Assembly: GCF_023015985.1 (NCBI RefSeq) | Contig: NZ_JALKAO010000002.1 | Span: forward strand, 124,001 to 188,000 | Origin: Marivita sp. S6314 | GTDB lineage: Bacteria; Pseudomonadota; Alphaproteobacteria; Rhodobacterales; Rhodobacteraceae | Length of the DNA stretch: 64,000 nucleotides | Reading direction: 5' to 3' | In this document: positions 51,598 through 57,241 of the stretch, piece after piece | How positions within the stretch are numbered: position 1 is the stretch's first letter | Layout of the letters: each line of letters begins with the position of its first letter | Notes under the pieces: model-generated | What the model was told of the DNA's origin: nothing | Seen by the model: the letters and a program-made list of their open reading frames with translations, nothing else | The model's database searches: none | Program-made: the position numbers and the translations under genes

Positions 51598-51888
51598 TCA
51601 GACGTTAAACGCGTCGGCCCAGTCCGGGTGTTTGCGGCGCTGTGCGTTCACAAACGGGCAGAGCGGAACGATCCTGAAGCCCTCGGCACGGGCGTCCGCG
51701 ACCATCCGTGTGACCAGCGCCACCCCGGCCCCGGTCCCGCGAAAGGCATCCGGGACACCCGTGTGATCCGCAATCCGCATCTTGGGGGATGCGATCGAAT
51801 AGGTCAGTTCCGCCTCTGCCCCGTCGAGTTGAATGACGTATCGGCCCTTGGCGCCGTCCTCTTCCCGGGTGATGTCGAACTCAGACAA
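51598..51888 (-). CDS. Small GNAT-like N-acetyltransferase (YjdJ/NATD1 type)
   Basis: The 96-residue protein is a short acetyltransferase-fold domain: [45 protein letters not shown], with the CoA-binding turn RGTGAG, and the ending [16 protein letters not shown] characteristic of this small family. Its start lies eight bases inside the end of scoB, so it is the last gene of the CoA-transferase operon. No acceptor is known. Confidence 0.87.
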
Positions 51889-52507
51889 GTGTGGCCTGCG
51901 TCGCGGCGCGCAGTTCGTCTTCGGTCACGCCGTCTGCGGTCTCAACGATTTTCAAACCGCCGTCCACCACATCCAGCACACCCAGATTGGTGATGATCCG
52001 GTCCACCACGCCCTTGCCGGTCAGGGGCAGCGTGCATTCCTTGAGCACCTTGCTGTCGCCATGCTTGTTGGTGTGGTCCATCACAACCACCACGCGGCCC
52101 ACACCGGCGACAAGGTCCATTGCGCCGCCCATGCCTTTGACGAGCTTGCCGGGAATCATCCAGTTTGCCAGATCGCCGTTTTCCGCGACTTCCATCGCAC
52201 CGAGGATCGCCATGGCAATCTTGCCGCCGCGGATCATGCCAAAGCTGGTCGCGCTGTCGAAATACGAGGTCTGCGGCAATTCCGTGATGGTCTGCTTGCC
52301 CGCGTTGATCAGGTCCGGGTCTTCTTCACCTTCATAGGGAAACGGACCCATGCCCAACATGCCGTTTTCGGATTGAAGGGTCACCTCAACACCATCCGGA
52401 ATGTGGTTGGACACCAGCGTCGGAATCCCGATGCCGAGGTTCACATACCAACCGTCCTGCAGTTCCTGGGCGGCGCGTGCGGCCATTTGATTGCGGTCCC
52501 ATGCCAT
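51881..52507 (-). CDS. scoB: 3-oxoacid CoA-transferase subunit B
   Basis: The beta subunit carries the active-site glutamate of a class I CoA-transferase that moves CoA from succinyl- or acetyl-CoA to a 3-oxoacid such as acetoacetate. The 208-residue protein has [18 protein letters not shown], the catalytic [13 protein letters not shown], and [18 protein letters not shown] with [22 protein letters not shown]. It is separated from its partner subunit gene scoA by the LOV kinase gene, which is unusual. Confidence 0.95.
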
Positions 52508-52552: not shown

Positions 52553-53623
52553 TTAATCTTTGATATCGGTAAAGCCGACGGGCACGTCGACCATAATCAC
52601 GGTTCCGGCAGCCCCGCGCGCCACGTTCAGCGTCGCGTCCAGACCGTCGAGAAGCGATGTCACCAGCAGTCCTCCGACAGATGTCTTGGAGGGATACGCG
52701 TGTTTTGATGGAATGCCCACACCGTCATCGGCAATCGTCATCCGCAGACCGCCCGCCGCCAGCCGGTTGACGCGCAGTTCGAGATAGCCCTGATCCAACC
52801 CGTCAAACGCATGCTGAAACGCGTTCGACACCAGTTCGAAGGTCATCAGCGCCACGCGGATCGCGGTTTCCAGGTTCACCTCAAGCGGTTCGACCAGAGA
52901 CACGAAGCGCACGCCGGGGCGGCCTTCGTTATGGGCGATGGTGTGCGAGATCCGCGACAGGAGCGACCCGAGGTCGATGCCGTCGCGATTCCACTGTTCA
53001 TCGGCAAGCTGCATTTCTTCGTAGACGAATTGCAGGCATTCCAGACGGCGCGGCAACACATCAAGGGCGCGCAGCAGCCGAACCCGGTCTTCTTCGGATT
53101 TGGGCATCGTGCGGTCGCGGTTGTCGACCAGCGAACTGACAATCAGGCCCAGATCCTTGCTGACCCGTGAACAGACCGAATCAAGATGCAGACGCGCAGC
53201 GTCATTGGCCTGATCCTGCTCTTCGTCGCGCAGCTCTTTCTGGATGCCGAGGAAATAGACCGGCTTGCCCTGCGCATCCAGAATCGGTGCCATCAGCAGG
53301 CGGTTCACAAACGGCTCACCATTGGCGCGGTAGTTCAGGATATCGACGCTTATGTCTTCCAGCGCCTCGATTGCGGAACGCATCCGGCGCACGGTGTCGG
53401 GGTCGGTATCCGGCCCCTGCAGGAACCGGCAATTGCGGCCGATGACCGAGGATCGCTGATAGCCGGTTGTGCGTTCGAACGCGTCGTTGATGTAGACGAT
53501 CGGGTTGTCGCGGGAGTTCGGGTTCGTGATGACCATAGAGACATCGAGTCGGGAAAACCCGGCCAGGGCCTGACTGTCGTCAAGCACAGATGTCAGCTTA
53601 CGCTTCTCCGCAACGCGTTCCAC
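52553..53623 (-). CDS. LOV-domain blue-light sensor kinase-like protein
   Basis: The 356-residue protein has an N-terminal LOV photosensor (about 20-130) with the flavin-adduct motif GRNCRFLQG, Cys65 being the photoactive cysteine, plus NYRANGEPFVNRLLMAPI and the flavin-contact Gln128. The HisKA_2-like helix reads CSRVSKDLGLIVSSL (151-165), where Ser152 stands at the usual phospho-histidine. An HATPase domain follows: N-box ELVSNAFQHAF (263-273), DDGVG (299-303), GGLLVTSLL. It lies 20 bases after scoA and 45 before scoB, so it is co-transcribed with both. No response regulator is next to it. Confidence 0.9.
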   Translation of the reverse strand: MERVAEKRKLTSVLDDSQALAGFSRLDVSMVITNPNSRDNPIVYINDAFERTTGYQRSSVIGRNCRFLQGPDTDPDTVRRMRSAIEALEDISVDILNYRANGEPFVNRLLMAPILDAQGKPVYFLGIQKELRDEEQDQANDAARLHLDSVCSRVSKDLGLIVSSLVDNRDRTMPKSEEDRVRLLRALDVLPRRLECLQFVYEEMQLADEQWNRDGIDLGSLLSRISHTIAHNEGRPGVRFVSLVEPLEVNLETAIRVALMTFELVSNAFQHAFDGLDQGYLELRVNRLAAGGLRMTIADDGVGIPSKHAYPSKTSVGGLLVTSLLDGLDATLNVARGAAGTVIMVDVPVGFTDIKD

Positions 53624-53643: not shown

Positions 53644-54354
53644 TTACGCCGCCGGACGCGGACGGGTGGTGCGCTGTTCAATGCGCTTTTCATGGTCACC
53701 CTGAATGATCCGGTGCACGTAGATACCCGGCAGATGAATGTGATCCGGGTCCAGTTCGCCCGGTTGCACGATCTCTTCGACCTCCATGATGCAGACCTTG
53801 CCGCACATCGCCGCCGGCGGATTGAAGTTGCGCGCGGTCTTGCGGAAAATCGCGTTGCCGGTTGTGTCGGCTTTCCAGGCTTTGACGATGGACAGGTCGG
53901 CAAAGATGCCTTCTTCCATGATGTAGGTTTCGCCGTTGAAGTCGCGGTGGTCCTTGCCTTCGGCAATCACCGTGCCAACACCGGTTTTGGTGTAAAAGCC
54001 CGGGATCCCGGCCCCACCGGCGCGCATGCGTTCGGCCAGCGTGCCTTGCGGATTGAATTCCAGCTCCAGCTCTCCGGACAGGTACTGACGCATGAATTCC
54101 GCGTTTTCCCCCACGTAAGAGCTGATCATCTTTTTGACCTGGCGGGTCTGCAACAGGATCCCGATGCCAAAATCGTCCACACCCGCGTTGTTGGAGGCAA
54201 AGGTCAGATCCTTAGCCCCACTGTCGCGGATGGCATTCAAAAGCAGTTCCGGAATGCCGCTGAGACCGAATCCGCCTGCTGCGATCAGCATCCCGTCCGT
54301 CAGGACCCCATCCAGTGCCTCGGCCGCCGATCCGTAGACCTTTTTCATCGACAT
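53644..54354 (-). CDS. scoA: 3-oxoacid CoA-transferase subunit A
   Basis: The alpha subunit binds CoA. The 236-residue protein starts MKKVYGSAAEALDGVL after removal of the first Met-Ser, and has LIAAGGFGLSGIPELLLNAIRDSG, the KDLTFASNNAGVDDFGIGILLQTRQVKKMISSYVGENAEF block split over two strands, and LAERMRAGGAGIPGFYTKTGVGT. It is the first gene of the operon scoA-LOV kinase-scoB-GNAT. The 286 bases upstream carry four GTCAAC elements. Confidence 0.95.
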   Translation of the reverse strand: MSMKKVYGSAAEALDGVLTDGMLIAAGGFGLSGIPELLLNAIRDSGAKDLTFASNNAGVDDFGIGILLQTRQVKKMISSYVGENAEFMRQYLSGELELEFNPQGTLAERMRAGGAGIPGFYTKTGVGTVIAEGKDHRDFNGETYIMEEGIFADLSIVKAWKADTTGNAIFRKTARNFNPPAAMCGKVCIMEVEEIVQPGELDPDHIHLPGIYVHRIIQGDHEKRIEQRTTRPRPAA

Positions 54355-54403: not shown

Positions 54404-54490
54404 GTCAACGGCTGCGCGTGCGCTTCCCGCGACTGTCAACTTGTCACGACATTGAAAAGGTTGACACTTTCAGGCGGGTGATTGGTCAAC
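54404..54490. promoter_or_regulatory. Cluster of four GTCAAC elements upstream of scoA
   Basis: GTCAAC or its complement GTTGAC occurs at 54404-54409, 54435-54440, 54460-54465 (reverse) and 54485-54490. The last three start exactly 25 bases apart, and TGTCAAC/GTTGACA at 54434-54466 form a 7-bp inverted repeat. They lie 50-136 bases upstream of the scoA start and look like a multi-site operator. The rest of 54355-54640 holds an 8-bp hairpin (54544-54564) 77 bases past topA, without a T-run. Confidence 0.5.
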
Positions 54491-54640: not shown

Positions 54641-57241
54641 TCAGGACGCGGATTTCTTGGCGGCCGGTTTCTTGGCGGCTGGTTTTTTCGCGGCTGATTT
54701 CTTGGCCGCGGGCTTTTTTGCTGCCGCTTTTTTCGCAGGTTTCTTCTTGGTGGTCTTCTTGGCAGCTTTTTCGGCGATCAACGCCAGCGCCATGTCCATT
54801 GTGACGGCGTCCGGCTCTACGTCTTTGGGCAAGGTCGCATTGACCTTTTCCCATTTTACATACGGCCCATAGCGGCCGTCCATCACCGCGATCATTCCGC
54901 CATCTTCGGGATGTTCGCCCAGCTCTTTCAATGGCTTGGCCGCAGCCCCGCGTCCGCGACCCGGATTGGCGCGTTTTTCGGCCAGCAGTTCCACCGCGCG
55001 GTTCATCCCGATCTCGAACACATCGGTGGGATCCTTGAGGTTGGCATAGACCGGTTTCGCGTCCTCCGGTCCCTTGTGCATGATATACGGGCCAAACCGT
55101 CCGAAATTGGCGCTGATCGCGCCGCCTTCGGGGTGTTCACCAACCACCCGCGGCAGGCTGAGCAAGGTGAGTGCCTTTTCCAGCGTCATCTCATCGGCCT
55201 GCCAGCCCTTGGGCAGGCTGGCGCGCTTGGGCTTCTTGTTGTCCTCGGTCACTTCACCGCGCTGCACATAGGGGCCAAACCGCCCCGAGCGCAGGGAAAT
55301 TTCGTCGCCTTGGTCTTCGCCCAGCACGCGGTCGCCGGTTTCGGCCGCATCGCCGCCAATGGGGCGGGTGTAGCGACATTCGGGATAGCGACCGCAGCCC
55401 ACGAACCCGCCGGTGCGCGAGGTCTTGAGATGCAGCTGCCCTTCGCCACACAGCGGACAGGTGCGCGGATCGCTTCCGTCTTCGCGTGGCGGATACAGTT
55501 GCGGGGCCAAGGCATCATCCAGCACGTCGAGCACCTCGGTAATGCGCAGTTCCGAGGTTTCGCCAATCGCTGCCGAGAAGTCGCGCCAGAAGCGGTCGAG
55601 CAGGACCTTGTAGTCCTTCTCTCCGGCGCTGACATCGTCCAGTTCGGCTTCAAGCGCGGCGGTGAAATCGTATTCCACGTAGCGTTTGAAGAAATTGAGC
55701 AGGAAGATCGTAACGATCCGGCCCTTGTCTTCGGGGATCAGGCGGTTCTGATCCTTGCGGACATATTCGCGGTCCTGGATCGTGGTGATGATGCTGGCAT
55801 AGGTCGAGGGGCGACCGATGCCCAGTTCTTCCATCCGCTTGACCAGCGTTGCCTCGGTATAGCGGGGCGGTGGCTGGGTGAAATGCTGGTCAGGCGTGAT
55901 GCTGCGCTTTTGGGCCGGTTCGCCCTGGGCGATCTGAGGCAGGCGCTTGTCATCGTCATCGACCACGGCGTCATCGCGGCCCTCTTCGTAGACCCGCAGG
56001 AACCCGTCGAACAGCACGACCTGACCGGTGGCCCGCAGCACAACCTGACCGTCGTCACTACCTACATCCACGGTGGTGCGCTCAAGACGCGCCGATTCCA
56101 TCTGGCAGGCGAGCGTCCGCTTCCAGATCAGATCGTACAGCTTGCGCTGGTCCGGTTCGCTGATTTTCAGGCTGGCGGCATCCTTGGACATATCCGTTGG
56201 GCGGATACATTCGTGCGCTTCCTGTGCGTTCTTGGCCTTGTTTTTATAGATCCGCGGGCTTTTGGGCACGTAGGAGTCGCCATAGCGATCCTTGATTGCG
56301 GCGCGGGCTTCTTCCACGGCTTCGGGGGCCATGTCGATCCCGTCGGTCCGCATATAGGTGATGTGCCCGGCCTCGTAGAGGCGCTGCGCGGCGTTCATTG
56401 TTTGGCGCGCACCCATGCCGAATTTGCGGCTGGCTTCCTGCTGCAGCGTCGAGGTCATGAAGGGGGCCGACGGGTTGCGGGAGCCCGGCTTAGCCTCGAC
56501 CGATTTCACGGTCAAATCGCGACTGCTGATCGCCTGAACGGCCAGTTCCGCCTGGGTTTCGTTCTCGAGATCGTAGCGGTCGAGCTTATTGCCCGCGAGC
56601 ACCGTCAACCGAGCTTCGTATTCCTGCCCGCGCGGTGTTGCCAGCAGCGCCTTGACGGACCAGTATTCGCGCGCCTTGAAGGCTTCGATCTCCATCTCAC
56701 GTTCGACAATCAGGCGCAGGCAGACCGATTGCACACGACCCGCGCTGCGCGCGCCGGGAAGTTTGCGCCAGAGCACCGGGCTCAGGTTGAAACCCACAAG
56801 GTAATCAAGCGCGCGGCGGGCCAGATACGCATCCACCAGCGGCACATCAATATCGCGCGGATTGGCCATCGCTTCGGTCACGGCGGCCTTGGTGATGGCG
56901 TTGAAGGTGACGCGTTTGACATCGGTGGATTTCTTGATCGCCCGGCGCTTGGTCAACGCTTCTTTCAGGTGCCAGGAAATCGCTTCGCCTTCGCGGTCGG
57001 GGTCAGTCGCAAGAATGATGGCGTCGTCGTTTTTCAACGCATCGGCGATGGCCGCGACATGTTTGCGGGAATCAGCGCCGACTTCCCATTTCATCTCGAA
57101 TTCGTTGTCCGTATCGACCGATCCGTCTTTAGGCGGCAGGTCCCGCACATGCCCGTAAGACGCCAGAACAGTGTAATCGGACCCCAGATATTTGTTGATC
57201 GTTTTGGCTTTGGCCGGAGATTCGACAACAACTACTGGCAT
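54641..57241 (-). CDS. topA: DNA topoisomerase I
   Basis: TopA relaxes negative supercoils by passing one strand through a transient break. The 866-residue protein has the Toprim domain (Glu8 in VVVESPAKA, acidic triad in DPDREGE at 80-86), catalytic Tyr296 (ITYMRTD), one four-cysteine zinc ribbon (CPLCGEGQLH ... CGRYPECRY) and several repeats of the Toprim C-terminal type (RFGPYVQRG, RFGPYIMHK, RYGPYVKWE). The last 40 residues are almost only Lys, Ala and Pro in KKPAA-like repeats. It has no close same-strand neighbour on its 5' side apart from dprA, 213 bases away. Confidence 0.97.
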   Translation of the reverse strand: MPVVVVESPAKAKTINKYLGSDYTVLASYGHVRDLPPKDGSVDTDNEFEMKWEVGADSRKHVAAIADALKNDDAIILATDPDREGEAISWHLKEALTKRRAIKKSTDVKRVTFNAITKAAVTEAMANPRDIDVPLVDAYLARRALDYLVGFNLSPVLWRKLPGARSAGRVQSVCLRLIVEREMEIEAFKAREYWSVKALLATPRGQEYEARLTVLAGNKLDRYDLENETQAELAVQAISSRDLTVKSVEAKPGSRNPSAPFMTSTLQQEASRKFGMGARQTMNAAQRLYEAGHITYMRTDGIDMAPEAVEEARAAIKDRYGDSYVPKSPRIYKNKAKNAQEAHECIRPTDMSKDAASLKISEPDQRKLYDLIWKRTLACQMESARLERTTVDVGSDDGQVVLRATGQVVLFDGFLRVYEEGRDDAVVDDDDKRLPQIAQGEPAQKRSITPDQHFTQPPPRYTEATLVKRMEELGIGRPSTYASIITTIQDREYVRKDQNRLIPEDKGRIVTIFLLNFFKRYVEYDFTAALEAELDDVSAGEKDYKVLLDRFWRDFSAAIGETSELRITEVLDVLDDALAPQLYPPREDGSDPRTCPLCGEGQLHLKTSRTGGFVGCGRYPECRYTRPIGGDAAETGDRVLGEDQGDEISLRSGRFGPYVQRGEVTEDNKKPKRASLPKGWQADEMTLEKALTLLSLPRVVGEHPEGGAISANFGRFGPYIMHKGPEDAKPVYANLKDPTDVFEIGMNRAVELLAEKRANPGRGRGAAAKPLKELGEHPEDGGMIAVMDGRYGPYVKWEKVNATLPKDVEPDAVTMDMALALIAEKAAKKTTKKKPAKKAAAKKPAAKKSAAKKPAAKKPAAKKSAS

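Follow-up and report, generated by a model that had tools for sequence, protein, structure and literature searches.

A LOV protein of Marivita with serine at the phospho-acceptor position is very probably an ortholog of the PpsR antirepressor LdaP

The LOV protein encoded at positions 52,553–53,623 of a 64,000-nucleotide stretch of the Marivita sp. S6314 genome, hereafter the window, is very probably an ortholog of LdaP, which counters the repressor PpsR in a light-dependent manner, and its missing phospho-acceptor histidine is the mark of this already described regulator. A single described case, LdaP of Dinoroseobacter shibae, becomes a clade of 18 genera among 394 genomes of the family, and the origin of this clade can be traced: a LOV kinase, found at a fixed locus in many relatives, lost its acceptor and now occurs alongside the photosynthesis repressor. 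New here are the clade itself and its position within a set of His-bearing kinases, some of which occupy the same locus; the drift of the acceptor position; the co-occurrence with PpsR and pufLM, including a single case of joint loss; and the conservation of the ATP motifs.

Domain build and comparison with LdaP

The gene lies on the minus strand, frame 1 of the plus strand being interrupted by stops over the same stretch, and its GTG start is 20 bases past the scoA stop codon (Table 1). The earlier note had described a textbook photosensor half and an ATPase half with its N-box and DDGVG motif retained, and the motifs GRNCRFLQG with Cys65, ELVSNAFQHAF, and DDGVG are all present. In the Pfam search, PAS_9 and HATPase_c scored above the cut-off, and neither HisKA_2 nor HWE_HK was listed for the protein at E ≤ 1. 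The closest solved protein is EL346 of Erythrobacter litoralis (4r3a; E 3.7e-68 over residues 22–350), which has the same domain order and is also the top PDB match of the AlphaFold2 model (TM 0.69 by query and 0.77 by target). The model, based on 21 related sequences, has a mean pLDDT of 76.7 and a pTM of 0.70; it places helices at residues 141–166 and 190–209 in the DHp-like region, where confidence is low (56–75 in the blocks of residues 131–220).

Table 1. Features of the LOV gene and its neighbors, in window coordinates
Feature	Position	Strand	Evidence
Probable ldaP ortholog (356 aa, GTG start): LOV + kinase-like protein without acceptor His	52553..53623	-	52% identity to L052 LdaP-like protein
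LOV (PAS) domain, about residues 24-131	53231..53554	-	Pfam PAS_9 28-131; EL346 and DsLOV matches
Cys65 codon, flavin-adduct cysteine by homology	53429..53431	-	GRNCRFLQ motif; LdaP Cys61 counterpart
Dimerisation/phosphotransfer-like helices, about residues 141-212	52988..53203	-	AlphaFold2 model, EL346 alignment
Ser152 codon (TCA), phospho-acceptor position	53168..53170	-	EL346 alignment, MAFFT, Marivita orthologs
His146 codon (CAT), among His-less genera invariant in Marivita only	53186..53188	-	Alignment columns
ATPase (CA) domain, about residues 213-350	52574..52987	-	Pfam HATPase_c 255-309; AlphaFold2 model
N-box E263-F273	52805..52837	-	Motif in alignment
G1 motif D299-P305 (DDGVGIP)	52709..52729	-	Motif in alignment
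scoA, 3-oxoacid CoA-transferase subunit A, upstream neighbor	53644..54354	-	TIGR02429; conserved neighbor
scoB, 3-oxoacid CoA-transferase subunit B, downstream neighbor	51881..52507	-	TIGR02428; conserved neighbor
topA, upstream of scoA, conserved neighbor	54641..57241	-	TIGR01051

LdaP (Dshi_1135) is described as a blue-light-controlled antirepressor of PpsR of 338 aa, with Cys61 and Arg148, and was compared with EL346 by its authors (PMC10890935). According to that paper, it undergoes an FMN photocycle for which Cys61 is required and interacts with itself in a two-hybrid assay, autophosphorylation was undetected by 32P or Phos-tag, and the D. shibae ldaP mutant is colorless, with photosynthesis genes down in the dark. 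Contact with PpsR was reported from co-purification and from the two-hybrid assay, where the signal came from one fusion pair only, and antirepression was seen in E. coli. Seven PpsR peptides were recovered with LdaP in white light, seven in blue light, and one in the dark; the authors' case for binding in the dark is that the bait was ~10-fold less abundant there, plus a Western blot (PMC10890935). Neither Marivita nor a CoA transferase turned up in a term search of the paper's main text, and in the open-licence literature we found one review mentioning LdaP and no further paper devoted to it.

Among the proteins compared, L052 (genome G075) is 338 aa long, carries GRNCRFLQ at residues 58–65 with Cys61, and has Arg148 in the acceptor position; these are published features of Dshi_1135/LdaP, and we equate the two on this basis. 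The window protein aligns with it over 338 residues (identity 64% in the LOV domain, 38% in DHp, and 51% in CA), and the two belong to one His-less group. Both combine a LOV domain with a kinase-like module, lack the acceptor His, carry the ATP motifs, lie between scoA and scoB, and come from genomes with ppsR and pufLM. They differ at the acceptor site, with Arg in LdaP and Ser in the Marivita protein, and by some 9 residues inserted behind the first helix of the DHp region.

We infer that the Marivita protein acts likewise on its own PpsR. In the LOV domain, blue light would form a flavin–cysteine adduct; under the model for D. shibae, binding of PpsR by the dark form would lift the repression of the photosynthesis gene cluster, and the light form would leave PpsR free to repress. 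The kinase-like half would no longer pass phosphate on and would serve as a switchable protein-binding body. AppA of Cereibacter sphaeroides is likewise a blue-light antirepressor of PpsR, but it has a BLUF/FAD sensor in place of LOV and is reported as missing from D. shibae (PMC10890935).

A clade with a vacated acceptor position

At E ≤ 1e-30, matches were found in 45 of the 394 genomes of the family, and the kinase helix was His-less in 19 of these (18 genera) and had the His in 23, the match being to the LOV part only in three. The His-type set of 23 consists of 14 strong relatives, all with His, and nine weaker genomes; G098, which carries both types, was counted as His-less, and the three LOV-only genomes (G403, G190, and G275) were excluded from both sets, the locus being read for G403 alone. 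Within the genus, orthologs with 80–86% identity occur in 13 of 17 Marivita genomes, the window's own included. At another locus, a paralog with 43–45% identity and the textbook sequence IQHRVKNHL is present in ten other Marivita genomes (L031–L040, L014, L102, and L103); the window's genome gave no second LOV-kinase match at E ≤ 0.001.

All 30 His-less rows fall on one side of a branch in the tree built without outgroup sequences (support 91/96; recovered in 92% of 200 bootstrap trees). When His-bearing LOV kinases of other families were included, 26 His-less rows, among them three pairs of identical rows, formed one group (81/94) nested among His-bearing sequences. The His-bearing sisters at the same locus, among them those of G194, G372, and G228, whose genomes carry PpsR, would allow a before-and-after comparison of the transition from kinase to protein-binding switch. 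Outside this group, a LOV kinase from a Hellea sp. MAG (L127:1170-2108) has lost the acceptor His as well as the N-box and sits on a long branch; no PpsR scored over the cut-off in that genome and no sco genes lie on the stretch examined, and its loss of the His is apparently separate from that of the LdaP clade.

The earlier note had claimed a non-histidine residue at the acceptor position, and both alignments bear this out. The acceptor His of an HRVKN-type H-box is absent from the window protein, the sequence there being SRVSKD, and in the alignment with EL346 svcsRVskdL is paired with evqHRVknhL, so that Ser152 occupies the position of the acceptor; MAFFT gave the same register. EL346 differs in retaining this residue, its phospho-His142, and is an active kinase (PMC10890935). 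Ser152 is invariant in the Marivita orthologs (13/13) and therefore no sequencing slip. Across the 17 other His-less genera the column holds N in nine, S in two, R in two, and G, A, D, and E in one each, which indicates that the position was vacated, not reassigned. The Lys and Asn of the H-box are no longer conserved in the 22 His-less rows, and the second His of KNH has become Asp157 in 20 of them.

That the protein is still a kinase, with an intact ATP site supplying phosphate to Ser152, His146, another residue, or a Ser/Thr in a partner protein (PpsR, for example), is very unlikely. The retained ATP-site residues and the invariance of Ser152 and His146 in Marivita would suit such an activity; the variability of column 152 in the other genera and the lack of detected LdaP autophosphorylation (PMC10890935) speak against it, and we rejected Ser152 as a new acceptor on the former ground. 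A histidine at residue 146 conserved in close homologs, which the earlier note had named as evidence against its own claim, is found throughout the Marivita orthologs (13/13) but fails in the 17 other His-less genera, where the column reads Q in eight, R in three, E in two, and I, L, N, and A once each. In 2 of 14 His-bearing rows this column does hold His, alongside the normal acceptor. As it is not conserved beyond Marivita among the His-less rows, His146 was rejected both as an off-register acceptor and as an alternative H-box. Among the readings that the note had offered, namely control of ATP binding, of dimerisation, or of a partner, or use of another residue, that of another phospho-residue is weakened, because the acceptor site drifts and His146 is not kept beyond the genus, and control of a partner gains from LdaP, with its Arg at the site, undetected autophosphorylation, and contact with PpsR. 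By this analogy, a partner role outside phosphotransfer is supported for the window protein.

A histidine-kinase fold that acts by binding has a precedent in DivL of Caulobacter, in which Tyr550 replaces the acceptor and which is described as binding DivK~P with no kinase or phosphatase activity (PMC4211667). Like DivL, the window protein could be a pseudokinase that, with no transfer of phosphate, modulates a bound partner, either a response regulator (for example of the PhyR/NepR stress pathway) or another HWE kinase, and its genome carries NepR and two HWE_HK matches. We consider this very unlikely: the co-purification with LdaP is reported to have given no cognate response regulator (PMC10890935), and the association with PpsR and pufLM would be left unexplained. 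DivL also differs in having no LOV domain, in having a response regulator as its partner, and in its reportedly weak ATP binding (PMC4211667). Outside the window, a NepR match near an HWE_HK kinase match (G000:C22:278441-280434) points to a general stress response locus. PhyP/PhyT of Sphingomonas resemble the window protein as an alphaproteobacterial kinase-like protein put to other use but are the reverse case, the His of HRxxN being kept and the ATPase degenerate (PMC5898713), whereas the window protein has lost the His and kept the ATPase motifs; PhyP was for this reason rejected as a His-less precedent.

The sco locus and the co-occurrence with PpsR

Neighboring genes, assigned by tblastn, place the LOV gene between scoA and scoB not only in the window but also at three additional Marivita loci and in 16 of the 17 other His-less genera, the exception being G227, where the LOV gene adjoins topA. 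In the 14 strong His-type relatives, the gene is flanked by both sco genes in 8, by scoA and then the contig end in 1, lies by topA without sco in 2, and is elsewhere in 3; the weaker His-type genome G034 also has both sco genes. As many His-type relatives share the locus, a LOV kinase was probably there before the His was lost. The same arrangement might suggest that the protein regulates ScoAB, its operon neighbors, by direct contact or co-translation and so links light to ketoacid use. We regard this as extremely improbable, since the LOV gene remains by topA where scoA has moved (G227 and G217) or is unmatched (G351), one Marivita genome (G003) retains both sco genes but not ldaP, and ScoA and ScoB are absent from the LdaP interaction table (PMC10890935). 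On the minus strand, a 96-aa ORF at 51598-51888 overlaps the end of scoB; it had no NCBIfam match at E ≤ 1e-10, and its homology cluster is present at 11 of 29 loci.

Action on PpsR, the reading that we prefer, is consistent with the gene content of the genomes. The window's own genome has a PpsR over the cut-off, and no more than 20 kb away lie pufL, pufM, bchY, bchG, bchP, idi, and dxs. Overall, PpsR was found in 167 and pufLM (PF00124) in 166 of the 394 genomes. PpsR is present in 18 of 19 His-less genomes vs. 149 of 375 others (P = 1.3e-6, Fisher test) and pufLM in 19 of 19 vs. 147 of 375 (P = 3.9e-8); the counts are by genome, and the P values overstate independence, because the His-less clade has one origin. 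The His-type genomes carry PpsR in 13 and pufLM in 11 of 23 cases (P = 0.006 and 0.0001, respectively, against the His-less). The one genome among these 19 that lacks a PpsR match is G304, which is 77% complete.

Within Marivita, 12 of the 13 genomes with ldaP have both PpsR and pufLM, and the thirteenth (G013, 87% complete) has a match to neither. The link is not absolute, as G007 and G010 have PpsR and pufLM without ldaP. G003 is without matches to PpsR and pufLM, and between its scoA and scoB (L199, G003:C105) blastn found ldaP remnants of <140 of about 1065 bases, two short ends left by an internal deletion of about 930 bases. This deletion is a separate event, but one only.

A PpsR-type TGT-N12-ACA site lies upstream of scoA at 54434-54451. 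The window holds 9 such sites, no more than expected by chance (mean 10.15). In up to ~350 bases ahead of scoA, or ahead of the LOV gene at loci lacking sco, a site was present at 4 of 21 loci of the His-less type and 1 of 13 of the His type. The site is therefore not conserved, and a PpsR box upstream of the operon was rejected.

Conservation of the ATP site

The N-box and G1 motifs are intact in the window protein and in all 13 Marivita orthologs, and at each of 11 positions counted in and next to the ATP motifs the residue is retained by at least 21 of the 22 His-less rows. With the H-box eroded and Asp157 nearly fixed, this pattern raises the tentative and rather doubtful possibility of a two-input switch, in which the LdaP clade would have shed phosphotransfer once and retained the ATP pocket as a functional nucleotide sensor, PpsR binding being set by light and by ATP/ADP. 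If true, such a switch would tie photosynthesis gene expression to the energy state. The conservation could also be purely structural, and against a nucleotide sensor stands the decayed ATP site of one row, L064, in a genome with PpsR and pufLM. All departures from the conserved residues (positions 267, 271, 303, and 317) are found in this row. In L064/L087 (G270), the Asn and His of the N-box and two Gly are lost, and the sco locus is intact.
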